In this document: in pieces, positions 393 through 37,267 of the stretch | How the letters are laid out: every line of letters begins with the position of its first letter | Position numbering within the stretch: the stretch's first letter is position 1 | Assembly: GCF_900638305.1 (NCBI RefSeq) | Contig: NZ_LR134506.1 | Location: 558,001 to 622,000, forward strand | DNA: 64,000 nt | Direction of reading: 5' to 3' | Source of the DNA: Porphyromonas cangingivalis | Lineage (GTDB): Bacteria; Bacteroidota; Bacteroidia; Bacteroidales; Porphyromonadaceae | Program-made: the position numbers and the translations under genes | The notes under the pieces: model-generated | Databases searched by the model: none | Told to the model about the DNA's origin: nothing | The model's input: only the letters and a program-made list of their open reading frames with translations

Positions 393-467
393 CGGGGTGT
401 AGCGCAGTCCGGTTAGCGCACCTGCTTTGGGAGCAGGGGGTCCCAGGTTCGAATCCTGGTACCCCGA
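393..467 (+). tRNA. tRNA-Pro (anticodon UGG)
   Basis: The cloverleaf is complete: acceptor stem CGGGGTG pairs with TACCCCG (one G-T), the anticodon stem CTGC/GCAG encloses the loop TTTGGGA with anticodon TGG, and the T arm contains GGTTCGAATCC. CCA is not encoded. The 5' half is host sequence; the 3' half from 424 is supplied by the prophage and restores a full tRNA. Confidence 0.95.
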
Positions 468-469
468 CT
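424..469 (+). repeat. attL core, 46-bp direct repeat
   Basis: Identical to 37222-37267 over 46 bases, with mismatches on both sides (423 versus 37221, 470 versus 37268). The repeat starts in the anticodon stem and ends two bases after the acceptor stem, as expected for a tyrosine recombinase that uses a tRNA anticodon-loop crossover. Confidence 0.93.
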
Positions 470-627: not shown

Positions 628-1842
628 ATGGCAACGACTAAATTTTACCTTGATACACGAGCAGATAAGCTCAATGGCACGTTCCCTCTCACTATATCAA
701 TCAGTCACAATGGAACCTCAGCTCTTTTACCCGTTGGAATAAACCTGAAACAGGAAGAATGGGACCCACGTGCAGAAAAAATAGTGAAGCATCCGCAGCG
801 CCAAACACTAAACACTCTTATATTGAAACGTAAGTTTGAGATTGATATTGAGCTGTTAAGCATGGTCTCTGACAAGCGCATGAAATCATATAAGGCTACC
901 GATCTAAAGCAGCTTATATTGAACCCAAGAGATGCAGGAAAAGAGGATGTTTTCTTCATGGAGCAATTCAGGCGATCTATAGATATGCGCCTCAAGGCAA
1001 GCACAAGAGAGGTGTACGAACACACATACAAGAGGATCAAAGCATTTGATCCAAACTATGAGGATATTCGTTTTGAAGACATCAATAAAGAATGGCTATT
1101 GAAGTTCGAAGCTTTTTTGGCTCAAACATCACCATCAAAGAACGCACGCAACATCCACCTCCGTAATATTCGAGCTGTATTTAATGATGCTATAGATAAT
1201 GACTACACAAGTCACTATCCATTCCGGAGATTTAAGATCAGACCTGTCCCGACCGCTAAAAGGTCATTGCCTGTTGAGGACCTCAGAATCCTTTTCAATT
1301 ATCCAGTATCCGACTCTCAGGTAAAGTATTTGGACATGTTCAAACTCACATTTTTCCTCATTGGGATCAATACAGTGGATCTTGCAGGGTTGCGATATAC
1401 AGACCTAAGGCACGATCGTATCGAGTATACTAGAGCAAAAACGAGTCGGCTGTATAGCGTGAAAGTAGAGCCGGAAGCAAGAGCCATTATTGATCGATAC
1501 AGAGGTATTAAATATCTGGTGGATATATCGGATCATTACAAAGACTACCAGAACTACCAAAAGAAGCTCAATAAAGCCCTTAAAAGGATAGGGGAGATTG
1601 ATGTATATGGAAGGGGTGGTAAATATCATTATAAAGCACTACACCCTGATATATCCATATATTGGGCACGTCATACCTGGGCAACCATAGCAGCAAGCCT
1701 CGACATACCACGAGATACCATTGCTCATGCTTTGGGGCATGGTAACAACACGGTTACGGATATATACATCGACTTCGATAGATCTAAGGTTGACGATGCT
1801 AACCGCAGGGTCATTGATTGGGTTCTATACGGTAAGAAATAA
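628..1842 (+). CDS. int: Tyrosine-type site-specific integrase
   Basis: This 404-residue recombinase most likely integrates and excises the prophage at tRNA-Pro. Its N-terminal ~90 residues look like the arm-binding domain of Bacteroidetes integrases; a SAM-like core-binding domain follows (about 110-215) and then the catalytic domain. The C-terminus shows the ARHTWAT arginine box, the LGHG motif and the nucleophile tyrosine in DIYID. The first catalytic arginine is not in its canonical place (GINTVDLAGL), a variation seen in several Bacteroidetes integrases. It lies 158 bp inside attL and reads away from the tRNA. ATG at 628 is chosen because ATTCAAG precedes it and the N-terminal domain begins directly after it. 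Confidence 0.93.
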   Translation: MATTKFYLDTRADKLNGTFPLTISISHNGTSALLPVGINLKQEEWDPRAEKIVKHPQRQTLNTLILKRKFEIDIELLSMVSDKRMKSYKATDLKQLILNPRDAGKEDVFFMEQFRRSIDMRLKASTREVYEHTYKRIKAFDPNYEDIRFEDINKEWLLKFEAFLAQTSPSKNARNIHLRNIRAVFNDAIDNDYTSHYPFRRFKIRPVPTAKRSLPVEDLRILFNYPVSDSQVKYLDMFKLTFFLIGINTVDLAGLRYTDLRHDRIEYTRAKTSRLYSVKVEPEARAIIDRYRGIKYLVDISDHYKDYQNYQKKLNKALKRIGEIDVYGRGGKYHYKALHPDISIYWARHTWATIAASLDIPRDTIAHALGHGNNTVTDIYIDFDRSKVDDANRRVIDWVLYGKK

Positions 1843-2647: not shown

Positions 2648-2679
2648 AATAGTGCCTACTTTCATAAGTAAGCACTATT
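2648..2679 (-). terminator. Terminator at the end of the lysis cassette
   Basis: AATAGTGCCTACTT (2648-2661) pairs with AAGTAAGCACTATT (2666-2679) with one mismatch and a 4-nt loop. Read leftward it is followed by ATTTTATC. It closes the late transcript after the candidate spanin gene. Confidence 0.6.
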
Positions 2680-2692
2680 TCAGAACAATTAT

Positions 2693-3199
2693 CTATCTCG
2701 GCATCCCTAGTGGACGCAAGAACACGACAAGAAGAGCACTTATTACAAAAATGATGATTATATAACGTAGCACGCCCGACTTGTGATCTTTGATCTTTTC
2801 GGTTATTTTGGTCTCTCTGTGCGTATCTTCGGCTCGTGCTGCGACCTTATTAGTTATAACCTCCGTTGTCTCGACATCTTTTGCCTGCTCTGTCGCATTG
2901 ATTTTGACAAGGGTCTTGCGCTCCATCTTAACACCCCCTTTCGGTGGTGGAAAAACATTGCTACTTGACTTAATACCCCCTATCGGGTCTATCGGTTCGT
3001 AGTACTCTGTCTCTGTAATAACAACAGAGCCCGAATGCTCCTTAATCCATTCTGAGATGGTTTTCCGTTCTTCTCGTGCTGTCTCCGAAGTAATCTCTTC
3101 TGTCTTGATCTGCACCTCCTCGGAGATTGTTTTGCGCTTGGAGACACAACTACTTAATAGACACGATATGACTATCAAGATTATAATGTTTTGTTTCAT
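2693..3199 (-). CDS. Candidate unimolecular spanin (lipoprotein with C-terminal membrane anchor)
   Basis: The 168-residue product has an N-terminal lipoprotein signal (lipobox LLSSC, Cys18), a polar Lys/Glu-rich periplasmic part of about 120 residues containing a short PPPKGG stretch, and one hydrophobic segment near residues 145-162 followed by basic residues. An outer-membrane lipid anchor joined to an inner-membrane span in one chain is the hallmark of u-spanins (phage T1 gp11 type), which fuse the two membranes at the last step of lysis. It lies in the lysis region with an amidase and a holin, although a toxin-antitoxin pair now separates it from them. Function is inferred from topology and position only. 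Confidence 0.65.
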   Translation of the reverse strand: MKQNIIILIVISCLLSSCVSKRKTISEEVQIKTEEITSETAREERKTISEWIKEHSGSVVITETEYYEPIDPIGGIKSSSNVFPPPKGGVKMERKTLVKINATEQAKDVETTEVITNKVAARAEDTHRETKITEKIKDHKSGVLRYIIIIFVISALLVVFLRPLGMPR

Positions 3200-3235
3200 A
3201 TGGCAAACAGGTAATTGTTAAAAGTATAATGATTA

Positions 3236-3267
3236 TTTGTTTTATAAGTTAGTTAGTTATACCTTTG
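3236..3267 (+). promoter_or_regulatory. Promoter of the Panacea toxin-antitoxin pair
   Basis: TTTG at 3236-3239, a 20-bp spacer and TACCTTTG at 3260-3267 fit the Bacteroidetes consensus well. The start codon is 30 nt downstream at 3298. The spacer contains AGTTAGTTAGTTAT, a possible operator. The promoter faces against the late operon, so the pair can be expressed in the lysogen. Confidence 0.65.
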
Positions 3268-3297
3268 TTGCAGGATAATCATTGCATGGGCATATAA

Positions 3298-3825
3298 ATG
3301 AACAACTTAGAACAATATAGCCTCATTGAAATGTCATTGTACATTTTACAGAAGACGGGAGGGCTGGATATATACCACCTGCTTAAGACACTATATTTTG
3401 CACAGAGGCATCACCTTGCTACTTATGGCATGCCACTTGTCGCAGATGAATTCCATGCTCTTAAGTATGGCCCGATCCCAACACATTTGTATGACTTATA
3501 CAAACATAAGAACTCCTCTTTTAACTGCGTCATCGGATCTGAGAATGAAGATGCGCAAGGCATACTCTTTGCCAGACGAGAACCCGATATGGATTATCTT
3601 TCCATTGCGGATATAGAGACGCTTGATTATTCAATCAGGATGTACAGCAGTAAAACCTTCCAAGAACTTAAAGAGCTGAGCCACGATGAATATTGGGAGA
3701 GGGCATTTAACAACCCTTCAAATCATATCATGTCGCATGTTGACATCGCAAACTCCGGGGGTGCACCGAGTGGTGTCGTCGAGCTGATCAACGAACACAA
3801 TTCTATCAAAAACGCCCTATCCTGA
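3298..3825 (+). CDS. Panacea-domain (SocA-like, DUF4065) antitoxin
   Basis: The 175-residue product has the Panacea/SocA pattern: an N-terminal helix (IEMSLYILQKTGG), then HLLKTLYFAQRHHL, YGMPLVADEFHALKYGPIP and a C-terminal helical part. Panacea proteins are antitoxins paired with many unrelated toxins. The stop codon is 3 nt before the next ORF, typical of an antitoxin-first pair. It is transcribed opposite to the surrounding lysis genes from its own promoter, so it is cargo rather than phage core. Assignment to the domain family is strong; the antitoxin role follows from family and pairing. Confidence 0.8.
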   Translation: MNNLEQYSLIEMSLYILQKTGGLDIYHLLKTLYFAQRHHLATYGMPLVADEFHALKYGPIPTHLYDLYKHKNSSFNCVIGSENEDAQGILFARREPDMDYLSIADIETLDYSIRMYSSKTFQELKELSHDEYWERAFNNPSNHIMSHVDIANSGGAPSGVVELINEHNSIKNALS

Positions 3826-3828
3826 AAT

Positions 3829-4275
3829 ATGCTTTTAGCAGATGGAATGCCGGAACACCTCTTGTTAGAGCGTCTTGTTAATGGACGGGTTTTTCTTATT
3901 CCAAAAGATAAAATAAAACATATCGTTTTGAAAAATGGAGATGATCAAGCTGCGAACAAGTACTATATATTCTTGGGATTGAGTTCATCTAATGGAACTT
4001 GTGCCGGTGTAATTATAAACTCTCGTATCAACAGCTTTCTCCATCAGGATCGTCGAGATCTGCAAATGCCACTGAAAGTAGACCCTGATCACTCATTCCT
4101 CCGCCATGACAGTTTTGTTGACTGCTCTTGTTTGTTCATCGTTAAAACAAGCGATATCTTCCGGCAAAAGTGTGTAGGATCAATAAGTCAAGATGTGCTT
4201 TCCGATGTTATGAGCACCGTTTCATCGTCGAAGTTTATCAAAACAAAAGATCTGAAGGAGCACGGTATCATATAG
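3829..4275 (+). CDS. Putative MazF/PemK-like toxin partner
   Basis: The 148-residue product follows the Panacea gene after 3 nt. The pattern of an N-terminal GRVFLIP strand, a YYIFLGL strand, SFLRHDSFVDCSCLF and a helical end (GSISQDVLSDVMSTV) resembles SH3-fold PemK/MazF-type proteins, which cut RNA. The resemblance is weak and read by eye; the catalytic residues cannot be fixed. That it is the toxin of the pair is inferred from gene order and from known Panacea partners. It ends 30 nt before the convergent amidase gene. Confidence 0.55.
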   Translation: MLLADGMPEHLLLERLVNGRVFLIPKDKIKHIVLKNGDDQAANKYYIFLGLSSSNGTCAGVIINSRINSFLHQDRRDLQMPLKVDPDHSFLRHDSFVDCSCLFIVKTSDIFRQKCVGSISQDVLSDVMSTVSSSKFIKTKDLKEHGII

Positions 4276-4304
4276 CCACTTTGAAGGCCACACTTGTTTT
4301 TCTC

Positions 4305-4718
4305 TTATAATTCCTTTTGCACGTTAAAGCTCGGACAAGCTTTGGGCGCAAACTCGTTGTGTCCGTGTACCGTTGCGTTGGGATAATCCCATTGCAAGGT
4401 CGCTACAAGCTCTCGAAGTGCTATGCGCTGCGCTTCGGTGCGTGTGTCCTTGGGTGTCTTGCCATCCTTGGCGACCCCTCCTACGTAGCATACACCGATA
4501 CTGTAACGGTTCTGCCCGACCGTATGCGCTCCGATCTGATCTAATGGTCGTCCCTCGTGGATAGTGCCATCGAGGTATATGAGATAGTGATACCCGATGT
4601 CTCTCCACCCCCTGCCTTGTACGTGCCATCTACGTACATCTTCCACGGTGTGATGTCTTCCCTCGGGTGTGGCCGTACAGTGGATGATGATCTTATCTAT
4701 CCGCCTATTGGTTTTCAT
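4305..4718 (-). CDS. N-acetylmuramoyl-L-alanine amidase (phage endolysin)
   Basis: A 137-residue amidase_2/T7-lysozyme-like enzyme that cleaves the amide between N-acetylmuramic acid and L-alanine in peptidoglycan. The expected residues are present at T7-lysozyme-like spacing: His13 (IIHCTAT), Tyr43 (GYHY), His120 (GHNEF), Lys126 and Cys128 (KACPSF), giving the His-His-Cys zinc site and the catalytic Tyr/Lys pair. There is no signal peptide, so export to the periplasm must depend on a holin. The ATG overlaps the stop of the upstream holin-like gene by 4 nt (ATGA), showing translational coupling. Confidence 0.93.
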   Translation of the reverse strand: MKTNRRIDKIIIHCTATPEGRHHTVEDVRRWHVQGRGWRDIGYHYLIYLDGTIHEGRPLDQIGAHTVGQNRYSIGVCYVGGVAKDGKTPKDTRTEAQRIALRELVATLQWDYPNATVHGHNEFAPKACPSFNVQKEL

Positions 4719-5212
4719 TTTTCATCTCCTTTCTTTTTCTCGGCCTGCTCCTCTTGGAGTTTGACCTTGCTAACGTTAATACCCATACGTGACATCATAG
4801 CCCCCAATATATGCAACTGCATGATCTCGACAAGGAACGGTATCACCTTACTGTCGGGGTATATCTTACCCGCGTTGTACAGCATATTGAGGATGTAGTA
4901 GTAGATGATGATCCAACTGAGGTACTTGACCACGACCGATGCCACCTCCACCTCTCCATAGAGGTGGAAAGTGAGGTGTATGAGCACCGTAAGCATGCAG
5001 AAGAACCCCATCTTGGTAATGGCATTGAAAGCCTTATTGAATTTGAACTCTTCCCCCAAGACTTTACGGTTTGCCTTAAACCCTAAAAAGACGTCCACTA
5101 TCGACATAGTAATAAGCAGCACAAGAGCCGTAGATATTGGAGAAAGGATTGAGATGACGAGGGCAAGAGCGCCTATTGTCATCTCCTTAACTCTTAGATA
5201 TACAGTGTCCAT
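4715..5212 (-). CDS. Phage holin family protein
   Basis: A 165-residue membrane protein with about four hydrophobic segments (ALALVISILSPISTALVLL, MGFFCMLTVLIHL, VVKYLSWIIIYYYIL and a weaker one near PFLVEIMQL) and a Lys/Glu-rich cytoplasmic tail, as in the toxin-secretion/phage-lysis holins of Bacteroidetes. A VDVFLGFKANR motif between the first spans fits the family. Position just upstream of the amidase supports a holin role. ATG at 5212 is preferred to the in-frame one at 5257, which would add a polar His/Asn-rich lead and a 64-nt overlap with the previous gene. Confidence 0.75.
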   Translation of the reverse strand: MDTVYLRVKEMTIGALALVISILSPISTALVLLITMSIVDVFLGFKANRKVLGEEFKFNKAFNAITKMGFFCMLTVLIHLTFHLYGEVEVASVVVKYLSWIIIYYYILNMLYNAGKIYPDSKVIPFLVEIMQLHILGAMMSRMGINVSKVKLQEEQAEKKKGDEK

Positions 5213-5718
5213 AGTAGCGTAGTGTATGTGGTTAGTATTGCGACAATCTCCGTCCAAAACAAAGCTTTAGATTTCGACAAAAAGGTCTTAATAGACACAA
5301 TCTCCTCAGCTCTCTTGAAGCGAATGACAAGATATGCGATAAGAAATCCCCATGCGAATAGGAGATAAGGTGTCAACAGGGCGACAAGGAGCTGAGAGCA
5401 AATGAGCAAAACAGTTGCTCCAACCGCATGTATCTTAGCTTCCACCGTCTCTCCCTTAAAGTGGGGAGAAACGGCAACAAACAGCATACCTCCGCATCCG
5501 AGAAATGCGAGAAACTCAACATCTTCAGGTACTATCTCCAGCATAGCCGGCATGAGAAGGGCAGCACTCGAAAACATCGCAACGCTGAATAGGCTTTTGT
5601 GCCTTAGTCGGTAGTACGTTGCGCTGATAGATGATGGTACGCTCTTGTGTGATAGGAGCGTGTACGATACGTAGGCAAGAAGTATCGCAAGTGATAGTAA
5701 GATTAGTAGTGTAATCAT
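5194..5718 (-). CDS. Multi-pass membrane protein of the lysis region
   Basis: A 174-residue protein with about five predicted membrane spans, beginning LLILLSLAILLAYV and ending with the hydrophobic segment TEIVAILTTYTTLLWTLYI. No family is recognised. It lies between the fibre genes and the holin, overlaps the next gene by 19 nt and starts within 4 nt of the previous stop, so it belongs to the late operon. It could be a second holin-type protein, an antiholin or a superinfection-exclusion protein; the sequence does not decide. Confidence 0.7.
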   Translation of the reverse strand: MITLLILLSLAILLAYVSYTLLSHKSVPSSISATYYRLRHKSLFSVAMFSSAALLMPAMLEIVPEDVEFLAFLGCGGMLFVAVSPHFKGETVEAKIHAVGATVLLICSQLLVALLTPYLLFAWGFLIAYLVIRFKRAEEIVSIKTFLSKSKALFWTEIVAILTTYTTLLWTLYI

Positions 5719-6302
5719 AGATTGTCAAAATTTAGTGGAGAGGGCATCCCCTCCTTGTAGTTATACTTATTGATTTCTTCTTCCTTTTTCAATCCTCGGA
5801 TGACCGACTCATGATACTTGATCTTTGTGTCTGCATCCGATGCGTAGACCTCCAATCGGTCAAGCATGGTCTTGACTGTCGCACAAGGCAGCGGAGTAGA
5901 CATCAGCCCCTCGATGGGTAGAGTTATGGACTCTATACCAAGTGCGATCTTAGCCTCAACAGCTTGTCGAAAGGCTATACGCTCTTGAAGACTCACCCAC
6001 ATTTTTCGCCCCATGAAGGTGAAAGAGTTCACCTCGTCACCATTGTTGTACTCGTATAGCTCCTGAAGTTTCTTTTGCCTTGTCTCTTCGATTGTATCAA
6101 CCTCAATGACTTCAAGCTTCTTGTTCCACACCTCAAGTGCAGAAGCATTAGGATACTTCTTGTGAAAGGCCACCTGCTCCGCACTCAATGGCACATACAC
6201 TCTTATAGAGTCCTCATAAGACTCTCCCAAACTATACCTTTCATCCAATTTCCAGCCAAAGGCAATAATTATGCCTTCTCTGATGTAATAATACTGTTTC
6301 AT
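5715..6302 (-). CDS. DUF4376-like protein, possible fibre-assembly factor
   Basis: The 195-residue protein has an N-terminal part of about 75 residues (KQYYYIREGIIIAFG) and a C-terminal part (NSFTFMGRKMWVSLQERIAFRQAV) resembling DUF4376, a domain found in phage tail-fibre and fibre-assembly proteins. It follows the BNR-repeat fibre gene with a 4-nt overlap. In many phages the gene after the receptor-binding protein encodes its chaperone, which makes that role plausible here but unproven. Confidence 0.6.
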   Translation of the reverse strand: MKQYYYIREGIIIAFGWKLDERYSLGESYEDSIRVYVPLSAEQVAFHKKYPNASALEVWNKKLEVIEVDTIEETRQKKLQELYEYNNGDEVNSFTFMGRKMWVSLQERIAFRQAVEAKIALGIESITLPIEGLMSTPLPCATVKTMLDRLEVYASDADTKIKYHESVIRGLKKEEEINKYNYKEGMPSPLNFDNL

Positions 6303-7246
6303 AACCCTGCGTTTATTGCGATTGCTTGTATACTGTTAGGTGATGTTGGAGTCTTGATACTGAAACTTGCACCGGAGTTGTTGGAGTAGTGCACTCTATT
6401 ACCCTTCGTATATACTTGTATCTGACCATCCTTTGACAAAGCCACTCTACTGTCATATCCACCGCCCGGAAGACCACTTGTCTCCTCCCAATTATTACCT
6501 CCATTACGAGACCTCACCATCGAAAAATTCGGTCTCACCGCAGTAAGTATCTGCCCATTATCTGATATAGATAGATCTATGCACTTAGTATAGAAGTACC
6601 TTATCCTAAAGCCTTGTGCATCGAAGTAATTATTTGACACAACATAATCTCTTCCGATATTGCCTCCAGAGAAAGCGATGATCCGTCGAGGACTCGAAGT
6701 TGCATCCATGACAACGTGTTCAGCTTTCGTATTGCTGTAGTACCGGGGAATGTTCAGAAAAGACTCTCCGTAGTCGCTACTGACATGCAGCCCATTCCCC
6801 GCCATTACACACATATACATTCCATCAGATGATATATCAATATCATATACCACACCATTCAAGCTTTTCTCTTGTACTGCGCCATTGCGATATAACAGAA
6901 TCTTTTGAAGACCGGTCCCTTTCATGGGAGCTGCGACAATATACCTGCCATCATCTGACATTGATACATTAGCGTATCCCGATGTGCTTGTCAGGCTTTT
7001 GAATGACCGACCAAAGTCCTCACTAAAGAATAACCCGCTATAGTAACCGCAATAAGCGATATATTTTCCATTGTTCGATACGGCAATTTGCCTTGCTATA
7101 TCACCGTTGAGTGGTAACATCTCCCAAGTCTCACCAAAATCCCTACTTATTGAGGATCCATGCCCATCTTGATGGATAACGATCAGTTGACCCGATTGAT
7201 AATTTTCGCCAGTAACACCACCCAAGAGCATTCTTCTCCCTATCAT
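6299..7246 (-). CDS. BNR/Asp-box beta-propeller protein, probable receptor-binding tip
   Basis: The 315-residue product contains at least five Asp-box (SxDxGxxW-like) motifs: SRDFGETW, SEDFGRSF, SSDYGESF, SRNGGNNW and SNNSGASF, each following a strand-rich stretch with SxNGKYI or SDDGRYI. This is the repeat signature of sialidase-like propellers. The catalytic Arg triad of true sialidases is not evident, so carbohydrate binding is likelier than hydrolysis. It comes right after the collagen-like fibre gene, one base apart, and is probably the part that contacts the cell surface. Confidence 0.75.
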   Translation of the reverse strand: MIGRRMLLGGVTGENYQSGQLIVIHQDGHGSSISRDFGETWEMLPLNGDIARQIAVSNNGKYIAYCGYYSGLFFSEDFGRSFKSLTSTSGYANVSMSDDGRYIVAAPMKGTGLQKILLYRNGAVQEKSLNGVVYDIDISSDGMYMCVMAGNGLHVSSDYGESFLNIPRYYSNTKAEHVVMDATSSPRRIIAFSGGNIGRDYVVSNNYFDAQGFRIRYFYTKCIDLSISDNGQILTAVRPNFSMVRSRNGGNNWEETSGLPGGGYDSRVALSKDGQIQVYTKGNRVHYSNNSGASFSIKTPTSPNSIQAIAINAGL

Positions 7247-7247
7247 A

Positions 7248-8273
7248 TCAGTAAGCTGTTATTAGATACTTGGTTGCCGTCTTGAGAACACTAATCTCTG
7301 AGACCTCACCACTTTTCAATTTCAATGATGCCTTTTTACTCACCCAATCTCCGCTGTTCGGCAACGGCAGCTCAAATTCAGCTGTCGGATATACCACAAT
7401 GTGGAGTATAGAGCCGATCGACAATGTTCCCCCAAGCGAAAAAGAGGATGCATTGCCCGTTGTTACCTCCACCAACCTCTTATTGATTGGTAGATTGGTG
7501 AAAGATGTCGCCGTATTACTGCCAACGTTTCGAGCGGACTCAAGAAGAACTGCAATAAATTCTTGCTCTGATCCCGCATAGCCGGCTTCTTGAGCTTGTT
7601 GGTAGGCACTCTTACCATCTGCACCTTTGGCGCCATCGTTGCCGTTCGCGCCTTTCGCTCCGGCTTTCCCTTTTAGGCCTACATACTGATACGACTCTTG
7701 TCCCTGTACCCTAACTCCGAGACGAGTTCCATCCCAATGAAACTCAAGAGGAAGACCCGGCTCCCCTTTGTCGCCTTTGTCGCCTTTGAGTGATTGCCGT
7801 TGCTCTTCGGTCAGCTCCTCGAAGGTCATCTTACCGTCTGCTCCTTTCGCTCCGGTTTCACCCTTGAGGTTGACATACTGATACTCGCCTTGCCCCTTGA
7901 TACGTACACCAAGCTCTGTACTACGCCAGGCAAACTCAAGAGGAAGACCCGGCTCTCCCTGGTCTCCCTTTATGGATTGTCCCGGCTCTCCCTGGTCTCC
8001 TTTTGGTCCCTTAATCCTCTCGATCGGGATAAGGATATGCCAAGAGTCGTCATCCTCTACTTGCCACATCACATTGTCGCCCTGGACGTCGAGCCTAACG
8101 GGCTTACCATCTTCGCCGTTCTTCACCTTTGCCTGAATGGCATCTACGAGCAACTGTATCGATATCCGCCCATTCTCTCCACTTGCCTGACAGACAAGAA
8201 GAAAATCAAGCAGACTTACCGCACTCAGTAGCGTGAAGTTCTGAATGTCAATCGTGTTTGCGTTTGTATTCAT
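7248..8273 (-). CDS. Collagen-like tail fibre protein
   Basis: The 341-residue protein has a globular N-terminus (1-85), then Gly-X-Y runs (GPKGDQGEPG, GDKGDKGEPG, GNDGAKGADGK) that should form trimeric collagen-like shafts, and a C-terminal globular part of about 110 residues. A module starting GLPLEF and ending near YQYV, followed by LKG and Gly-X-Y triplets, occurs twice (about residues 108-150 and 172-215), showing internal duplication. Gly-X-Y shafts are common in siphoviral fibres. It sits between the large tail-tip protein and the BNR protein and is likely the fibre shaft. Confidence 0.8.
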   Translation of the reverse strand: MNTNANTIDIQNFTLLSAVSLLDFLLVCQASGENGRISIQLLVDAIQAKVKNGEDGKPVRLDVQGDNVMWQVEDDDSWHILIPIERIKGPKGDQGEPGQSIKGDQGEPGLPLEFAWRSTELGVRIKGQGEYQYVNLKGETGAKGADGKMTFEELTEEQRQSLKGDKGDKGEPGLPLEFHWDGTRLGVRVQGQESYQYVGLKGKAGAKGANGNDGAKGADGKSAYQQAQEAGYAGSEQEFIAVLLESARNVGSNTATSFTNLPINKRLVEVTTGNASSFSLGGTLSIGSILHIVVYPTAEFELPLPNSGDWVSKKASLKLKSGEVSEISVLKTATKYLITAY

Positions 8274-37221: not shown

Positions 37222-37267
37222 GCTTTGGGAGCAGGGGGTCCCAGGTTCGAATCCTGGTACCCCGACT
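37222..37267 (+). repeat. attR core, displaced 3' end of host tRNA-Pro
   Basis: 46 bases identical to 424-469. Upstream sequence does not complete a tRNA, so this is the host 3' fragment left after integration and not a second tRNA gene. Confidence 0.93.

Follow-up and report, generated by a model that had tools for sequence, protein, structure and literature searches.

A Panacea gene and a gene for a predicted MazF-fold protein form a putative toxin-antitoxin pair antisense to the lysis genes of a Porphyromonas cangingivalis prophage

Results

In a 64,000-nucleotide stretch of the Porphyromonas cangingivalis genome (assembly GCF_900638305.1, contig NZ_LR134506.1, positions 558,001 to 622,000; hereafter the window), two adjacent plus-strand genes lie within the leftward holin, amidase and spanin candidate genes of a prophage, at the coordinates and in the order given by an original prediction made from the DNA alone. 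The first, panA (3298..3825, +), encodes a 175-residue antitoxin candidate of the Panacea (DUF4065/SocA-like) kind, while the second (3829..4275, +), which starts 3 bp after panA, encodes a 148-residue candidate MazF-fold toxin. Taken together, the findings are best explained by a PanAT module whose toxin is a remote MazF-fold protein, a kind of module validated by Kurata 2022 (PMC8832971). We consider it probable that the two genes make up a type II-like PanAT toxin-antitoxin module, self-contained and borne by the prophage as a moron (an extra gene unit), which acts by the mechanism set out below.

The product of panA scores 71.7 bits with PF13274 (cut-off 25.7; E 1.2e-19), and this hidden Markov model search bears out its earlier description as clearly Panacea/SocA-like. 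It is the one PF13274 match in its own genome, and a Panacea profile built from relatives found no match in the other 11 genomes of the genus. PanA is 54-55% identical to its counterparts in BK068104 and BK068105, two prophages of Porphyromonas gingivalis. A PanA profile searched against PDB sequences returned nothing at E 1. Ernits 2023 (PMC10440598) favours a role for the Panacea domain in sensing unknown cues. The second gene had been called weakly MazF/PemK-like, and by sequence its likeness to MazF is indeed weak (phrog_1936, 0.0093). By predicted fold the likeness is clear: an AlphaFold2 model with a predicted local distance difference test (pLDDT) score of 84.6 has MazF-type matches among PDB structures, and a profile alignment with MazF was obtained. 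The structural match to a toxin fold, whose absence from a non-toxic protein was to count against the original prediction, is present in the modelled protein.

Searches for the toxin, made without requiring a Panacea neighbour, located homologues in 25 places outside the window, comprising 10 loci (L002, L003, L004 and L009-L015, some of them near-duplicates) and, spread over 14 genomes of the order, a further 15 places. A Panacea open reading frame (ORF) lies directly upstream on the same strand in 24 of these 25 places, the sole exception being L029, the MazF-type protein, and the two ORFs overlap or are at most 3 bp apart, an arrangement that is that of a two-gene operon. One further match, L028, is borderline for the two genes alike. 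The distribution is patchy: within the order, 15 of 393 genomes were positive, and the single window sequence, used as the query, matched 4 of 149 relatives, the genome of origin being included in both counts.

The surroundings of the pair vary. In BK068104, BK068105 and contig L009 it is on the same strand as, and follows, an endolysin gene, a spanin gene (in L009 and BK068105, whereas the space at this place in BK068104 is too small for one) and a small ORF. Between the small ORF and panA of BK068104 there is a hairpin with a U run (-16.7 kcal/mol, z -4.0), which was missed by the terminator scan, spotted by eye and then folded. In L010-L012 the pair follows a neck-like gene on the same strand and, in L010 and L012, precedes a tape-measure-like gene, while in Serratia phage OS31 and contig L013 it lies on the same strand between the genes for antiterminator Q and a methyltransferase, the latter followed by a holin gene. 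Among genomes of the order, where ORFs were listed without library annotation, its neighbours are varied. When 18 proteins of the window prophage were compared with 24.6 kb of BK068104, no ORF matched at 1e-3, the integrase pairing being left out of this comparison.

In BK068104 (L002, 19464-20441) and BK068105 (L003, 5464-6441), the 'hypothetical protein' encoded directly before the 'MazF-like' gene is the Panacea protein, which, judged from these sequences, is likely to be the missing partner of the P. gingivalis 'MazF-like' toxin. Matrishin 2023 (PMC10367356) noted singleton toxins in P. gingivalis phages and expected their partners nearby; the text of that paper does not name MazF. HicAB genes are also present near the integrase end of the first of these prophages (L002, 22370-23264), so that this P. 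gingivalis element has two toxin-antitoxin-like pairs.

Ahead of panA, a Bacteroidota-type (sigma-ABfr-like) promoter motif, TTTG-N20-TACCTTTG (3236..3267, +), ends 30 bp before the ATG; it fits the sigma-ABfr consensus (PMC7366714) and arises in 33 of 5000 shuffles of 3200-3297. Within the 100 nt upstream of the first start codon of the ORF, TANNTTTG was found in 9 of 18 Bacteroidota-type loci, whereas shuffles gave a mean of 1.7 (at most 7 in 500) and the reverse strand a count of 3; in the relatives, the full -33/-7 motif seldom occurs upstream. The claim that the unit has its own consensus promoter and is antisense to the lysis genes thus stands with respect to this motif and to the plus-strand orientation of the pair, but not with respect to the sigma-70 match that was probably meant, TAGACA-N18-TATAAT at 3158-3187 (11/12 positions). 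We rejected that match as evidence of independent transcription: 8 sigma-70-type sites (at least 9/12 positions) were found where shuffles gave a mean of 8.1, and this one falls inside the spanin gene.

We propose that in the lysogen the promoter at 3236-3267 would give rise to a two-gene messenger RNA, and that PanA would bind the MazF-fold toxin and keep it inactive. Loss of PanA upon loss of the prophage, or disruption of its hold by, for example, an incoming phage, would free the toxin, probably an RNA-cutting enzyme, which would stop translation and arrest the growth of cured or infected cells, with a putative benefit to the prophage. The unit would have inserted in reverse orientation between the genes for endolysin and spanin.

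On the minus strand from 4305 to 3200 the scan found no terminator-like site, and a strong hairpin occurs after the spanin gene, where an intrinsic terminator with a 14-pair stem is predicted (2648..2679, -; z -6.1); late leftward RNA therefore probably crosses the pair. As no terminator-like fold follows the toxin gene, rightward and leftward transcripts probably converge. Layout and motifs fit a noncontiguous operon, in which an antisense gene with its own promoter is nested in a read-through operon, with a possible extra minus-strand element at 3508, where a minus-strand TANNTTTG might be the own promoter of the spanin gene. The original prediction had tied the state of the toxin-antitoxin pair to lysis, and the pair could, though we think this unlikely, be a switch nested in the lysis operon that is expressed in lysogeny and silenced by late leftward transcription at induction, whereby the phage would avoid its own toxin, or the toxin would alter the timing of lysis. 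Seen in terms of the life cycle, and with the same low probability, the pair would guard the lysogen and late opposite-strand transcription would be the off signal, or panA-panT transcription would restrain the spanin gene and so delay lysis. The antisense position between amidase and spanin genes and the probable overlap of transcripts argue for such a link, as does the precedent of Staphylococcus aureus prophages, which turn off the Tha RNase at induction through an antisense layout (PMC11087260). A mechanism of this kind is not supported, however: the window is the only one of nine phage loci in which the pair is antisense to its neighbours, the other eight, from three lineages, being co-oriented and those of one lineage lying beside neck and tail genes; the hairpin terminator insulates the pair from the lysis genes in BK068104; and the minus-strand TANNTTTG at 3508 might supply the spanin gene with a promoter. 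The lysis link is a position effect met once. Because related pairs occupy many other places, the position between endolysin and spanin genes looks incidental, as it probably is, and not like a built-in link to lysis.

Several results weigh against a PanAT module with a MazF-type toxin. The toxin candidate of the window has no Pfam match of note and does not reach the cut-off of PF02452 (PemK_toxin), which matched 3 of 11 members of the toxin family (best 0.005); because the Pfam match is absent or weak, we file the protein as MazF-fold only and not as a PF02452 member. The toxin profile returned chance-like matches only, and no MazF chain, from PDB sequences, and the PADLOC models gave no match. 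Going by the order of the predicted strands, moreover, the catalytic Arg is replaced by Lys. Gly19, Lys44 and Asn64 are invariant in all 21 toxin sequences, with residue 65 being Ser in 18 and Thr in 3. The first three strands of the model are predicted at 20-25, 43-51 and 57-64, so that K44 would open strand 2 and S65 would stand just after strand 3. We take these to be the places of MazF Arg25 and Thr48 in the fold, matched by strand order and not by coordinates. Arg25 and Thr48 are key residues of MazF, and among the MazF proteins of Mycobacterium tuberculosis MazF4 has Lys for the Arg and MazF7 has Ser for the Thr (PMC7354611). It is quite improbable, in our estimate, that there is no toxin-antitoxin pair here and that the MazF-fold protein is non-toxic or inactive, with another role such as regulation; its remote sequence relation to MazF and the Lys in place of the catalytic Arg speak for this, but the conservation of Lys44, Asn64 and Ser/Thr65 suggests that an active site has been kept, the two M. 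tuberculosis proteins have Lys and Ser at these places, and the pairing with Panacea is constant.

One phage relative, L192, was reached through a structural protein; it shares terminase (1.5e-214), portal (5e-94) and head protein (7e-80). Downstream of these, a holin-like protein, an endolysin-like protein and a 129-residue protein with a lipobox and a transmembrane segment were identified by eye, their genes overlapping on one strand. Neither Panacea nor the toxin was matched in the 22 kb examined; the endolysin-like gene differs in type from the window amidase. In this one syntenic relative, the kind of comparison that had been suggested, the pair is missing from the lysis region. Although it adjoins lysis genes in the window and in the two P. 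gingivalis prophage records, and lies few genes before the holin gene in Serratia phage OS31, we reject as highly improbable that the pair belongs to the core of the lysis system in these phages, in view of the contiguous lysis-like genes of L192, the neck and tail gene neighbours in L010-L012 and the varied chromosomal contexts. The original prediction was also to be given up if the two genes were core lysis genes in all relatives, and this is not the case.

The searches yielded no close relative in which an empty site could be matched by sequence, since scans of viral contigs with the window toxin alone, the holin and the spanin confirmed no relative, the phage-record search found none with the spanin and one weak record with the holin, and in family-level genomes the holin and the spanin each matched their own genome only (1 of 38 each). 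GC content gives no strong sign of origin, as panA (0.43) and the toxin gene (0.40) are below the amidase gene (0.52) but near the prophage mean (0.45).

The minus-strand genes on either side of the pair encode an endolysin, an N-acetylmuramoyl-L-alanine amidase (4305..4718, -; PF01510 2e-17, PHROG amidase 2.4e-58), and a unimolecular spanin (u-spanin)-like protein of 168 residues (2693..3199, -). Another amidase of this family, 46% identical, is encoded at 1827407-1827805 of the same genome. Next to the amidase gene is that of a holin-like membrane protein (4715..5257, -), which has two transmembrane segments by rule, a PF05105 match under the curated cut-off (0.0034) and a match to phrog_15037 (1.4e-16), a PHROG of unknown function. 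By a simple rule combining a regular expression for the lipobox with hydropathy, the spanin candidate has an N-terminal lipobox and a C-terminal transmembrane segment, the topology of a unimolecular spanin (PMC6139136). Its best PHROG spanin score is 0.081, with no clear family match, and no sequence homologue was found among phage records, viral contigs, family-level genomes or ORFs after related amidases; singletons make up more than 40% of the spanin families of each type (PMC6139136).

Viral loci with related amidases were surveyed using the best 80 of at least 597, of which 6 were too near a contig end, leaving 74 that include duplicates and near-duplicates (e.g. L094/L096, L102/L103 and L099/L101). 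By rule, a u-spanin directly follows the amidase in 14 (gaps of -48 to +15 bp), and in 8 the next ORF has a C-terminal transmembrane segment without a lipobox, of which L085, L099, L101 and L136 look like lipoproteins on reading, adding four u-spanin-like candidates, and the other four do not; the rest have an ORF with an N-terminal transmembrane segment (24), another ORF (11) or none (17). At three genome loci with a related amidase (L077-L079) there is no u-spanin by rule. An amidase followed immediately by a u-spanin is a recurrent order, not a majority one, and the window departs from it. The P. gingivalis spanin candidate of BK068105 (L003, 4405-5022) likewise combines a lipobox with a C-terminal transmembrane segment; as it, the window protein and the 14 amidase-adjacent proteins share this topology, spanins made of one protein may be frequent among phages of this sort.

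The prophage spans approximately 36.8 kb of a 2.40 Mb, single-contig genome and is bounded by two exact 46-bp att repeats, one (424..469) within the 3' part of tRNA-Pro (393-468) and the other at the opposite end (37222..37267). It carries a tyrosine integrase gene (628..1842, +; PF13102 2e-17, PF17293 8.8e-9) and minus-strand terminase, portal, major head, major tail and tape-measure-like genes, identified by PHROG matches among 10 proteins scanned. The domain types of the integrase and the type of promoter point to a Bacteroidota host. The tRNA-Pro att site is of the same kind as that of the proposed P. gingivalis phage family Nixviridae (PMC10367356). The tail-fibre region includes a beta-propeller-like protein with BNR/Sortilin repeats (6299-7246). 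An ORF with collagen-like Gly-X-Y stretches (7248-8273) probably encodes a tail-fibre protein, on reading its translation, and a predicted lipoprotein gene with a weak DUF2481 match (0.016) lies between the integrase and spanin genes (1948-2601).

Discussion

Our analysis identifies a family of remote MazF-fold toxins, most tested members of which go unrecognised by Pfam, that regularly accompanies Panacea antitoxins in Bacteroidales genomes and phages, and it indicates a likely partner for a P. gingivalis phage gene that is labelled MazF-like and has an unnamed gene next to it. Should the nested antisense position prove functional, the pair would be a simple case in which to test how a prophage escapes poisoning by its own defence genes at induction. 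Among the papers listed by literature searches, no title or abstract opening described a Panacea pair lying antisense within a lysis cassette; PMC12829572 concerns a different MazF-like system.

The closest likeness in kind is to PanAT pairs with a MazF-like PanT (PMC8832971; PMC10440598), in which a Panacea gene is likewise directly beside the toxin gene. By HHpred, the PanTs of Pseudomonas moraviensis and Bifidobacterium ruminantium resemble MazF, and they are placed among translation inhibitors (PMC8832971); the window pair is likened to these two by description, not by comparison of sequences, and differs in being nested antisense in a lysis operon. In BK068104 and BK068105 the same two genes occur in the same order after the endolysin region, with 54-55% identity for Panacea and 39-41% for the toxin, and this phage group also uses tRNA-Pro (PMC10367356), but there the pair is co-oriented with the lysis genes and, in BK068104, preceded by a hairpin terminator. 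MazEF and PemIK (Kid) have in common with the window pair the MazF fold predicted for the toxin, whereas the window antitoxin is a Panacea protein and not MazE or PemI, and the window toxin is remote in sequence, with Lys and Ser/Thr where the catalytic residues are presumed to lie. SocAB (type VI) shares the Panacea domain of the antitoxin; the window partner, however, has a predicted MazF fold, and SocAB proper was rejected because PanA scores 34.2 against the 190 bits required by the SocA equivalog NF047745.

Tha/Ith of S. aureus prophages is likewise a prophage-borne function antisense to other phage genes and a precedent for a life-cycle switch, its antisense overlapping operons shutting down a toxic anti-phage RNase at induction (PMC11087260). 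It differs in that Tha, a HEPN RNase, is encoded within the cI operon and its dedicated inhibitor on the opposite strand (PMC11087260), and from their domains homology between Tha and the window toxin is not expected. A life-cycle switch in the window, should there be one, would follow a similar logic, but with transcription of the lysis genes itself as the proposed off signal.
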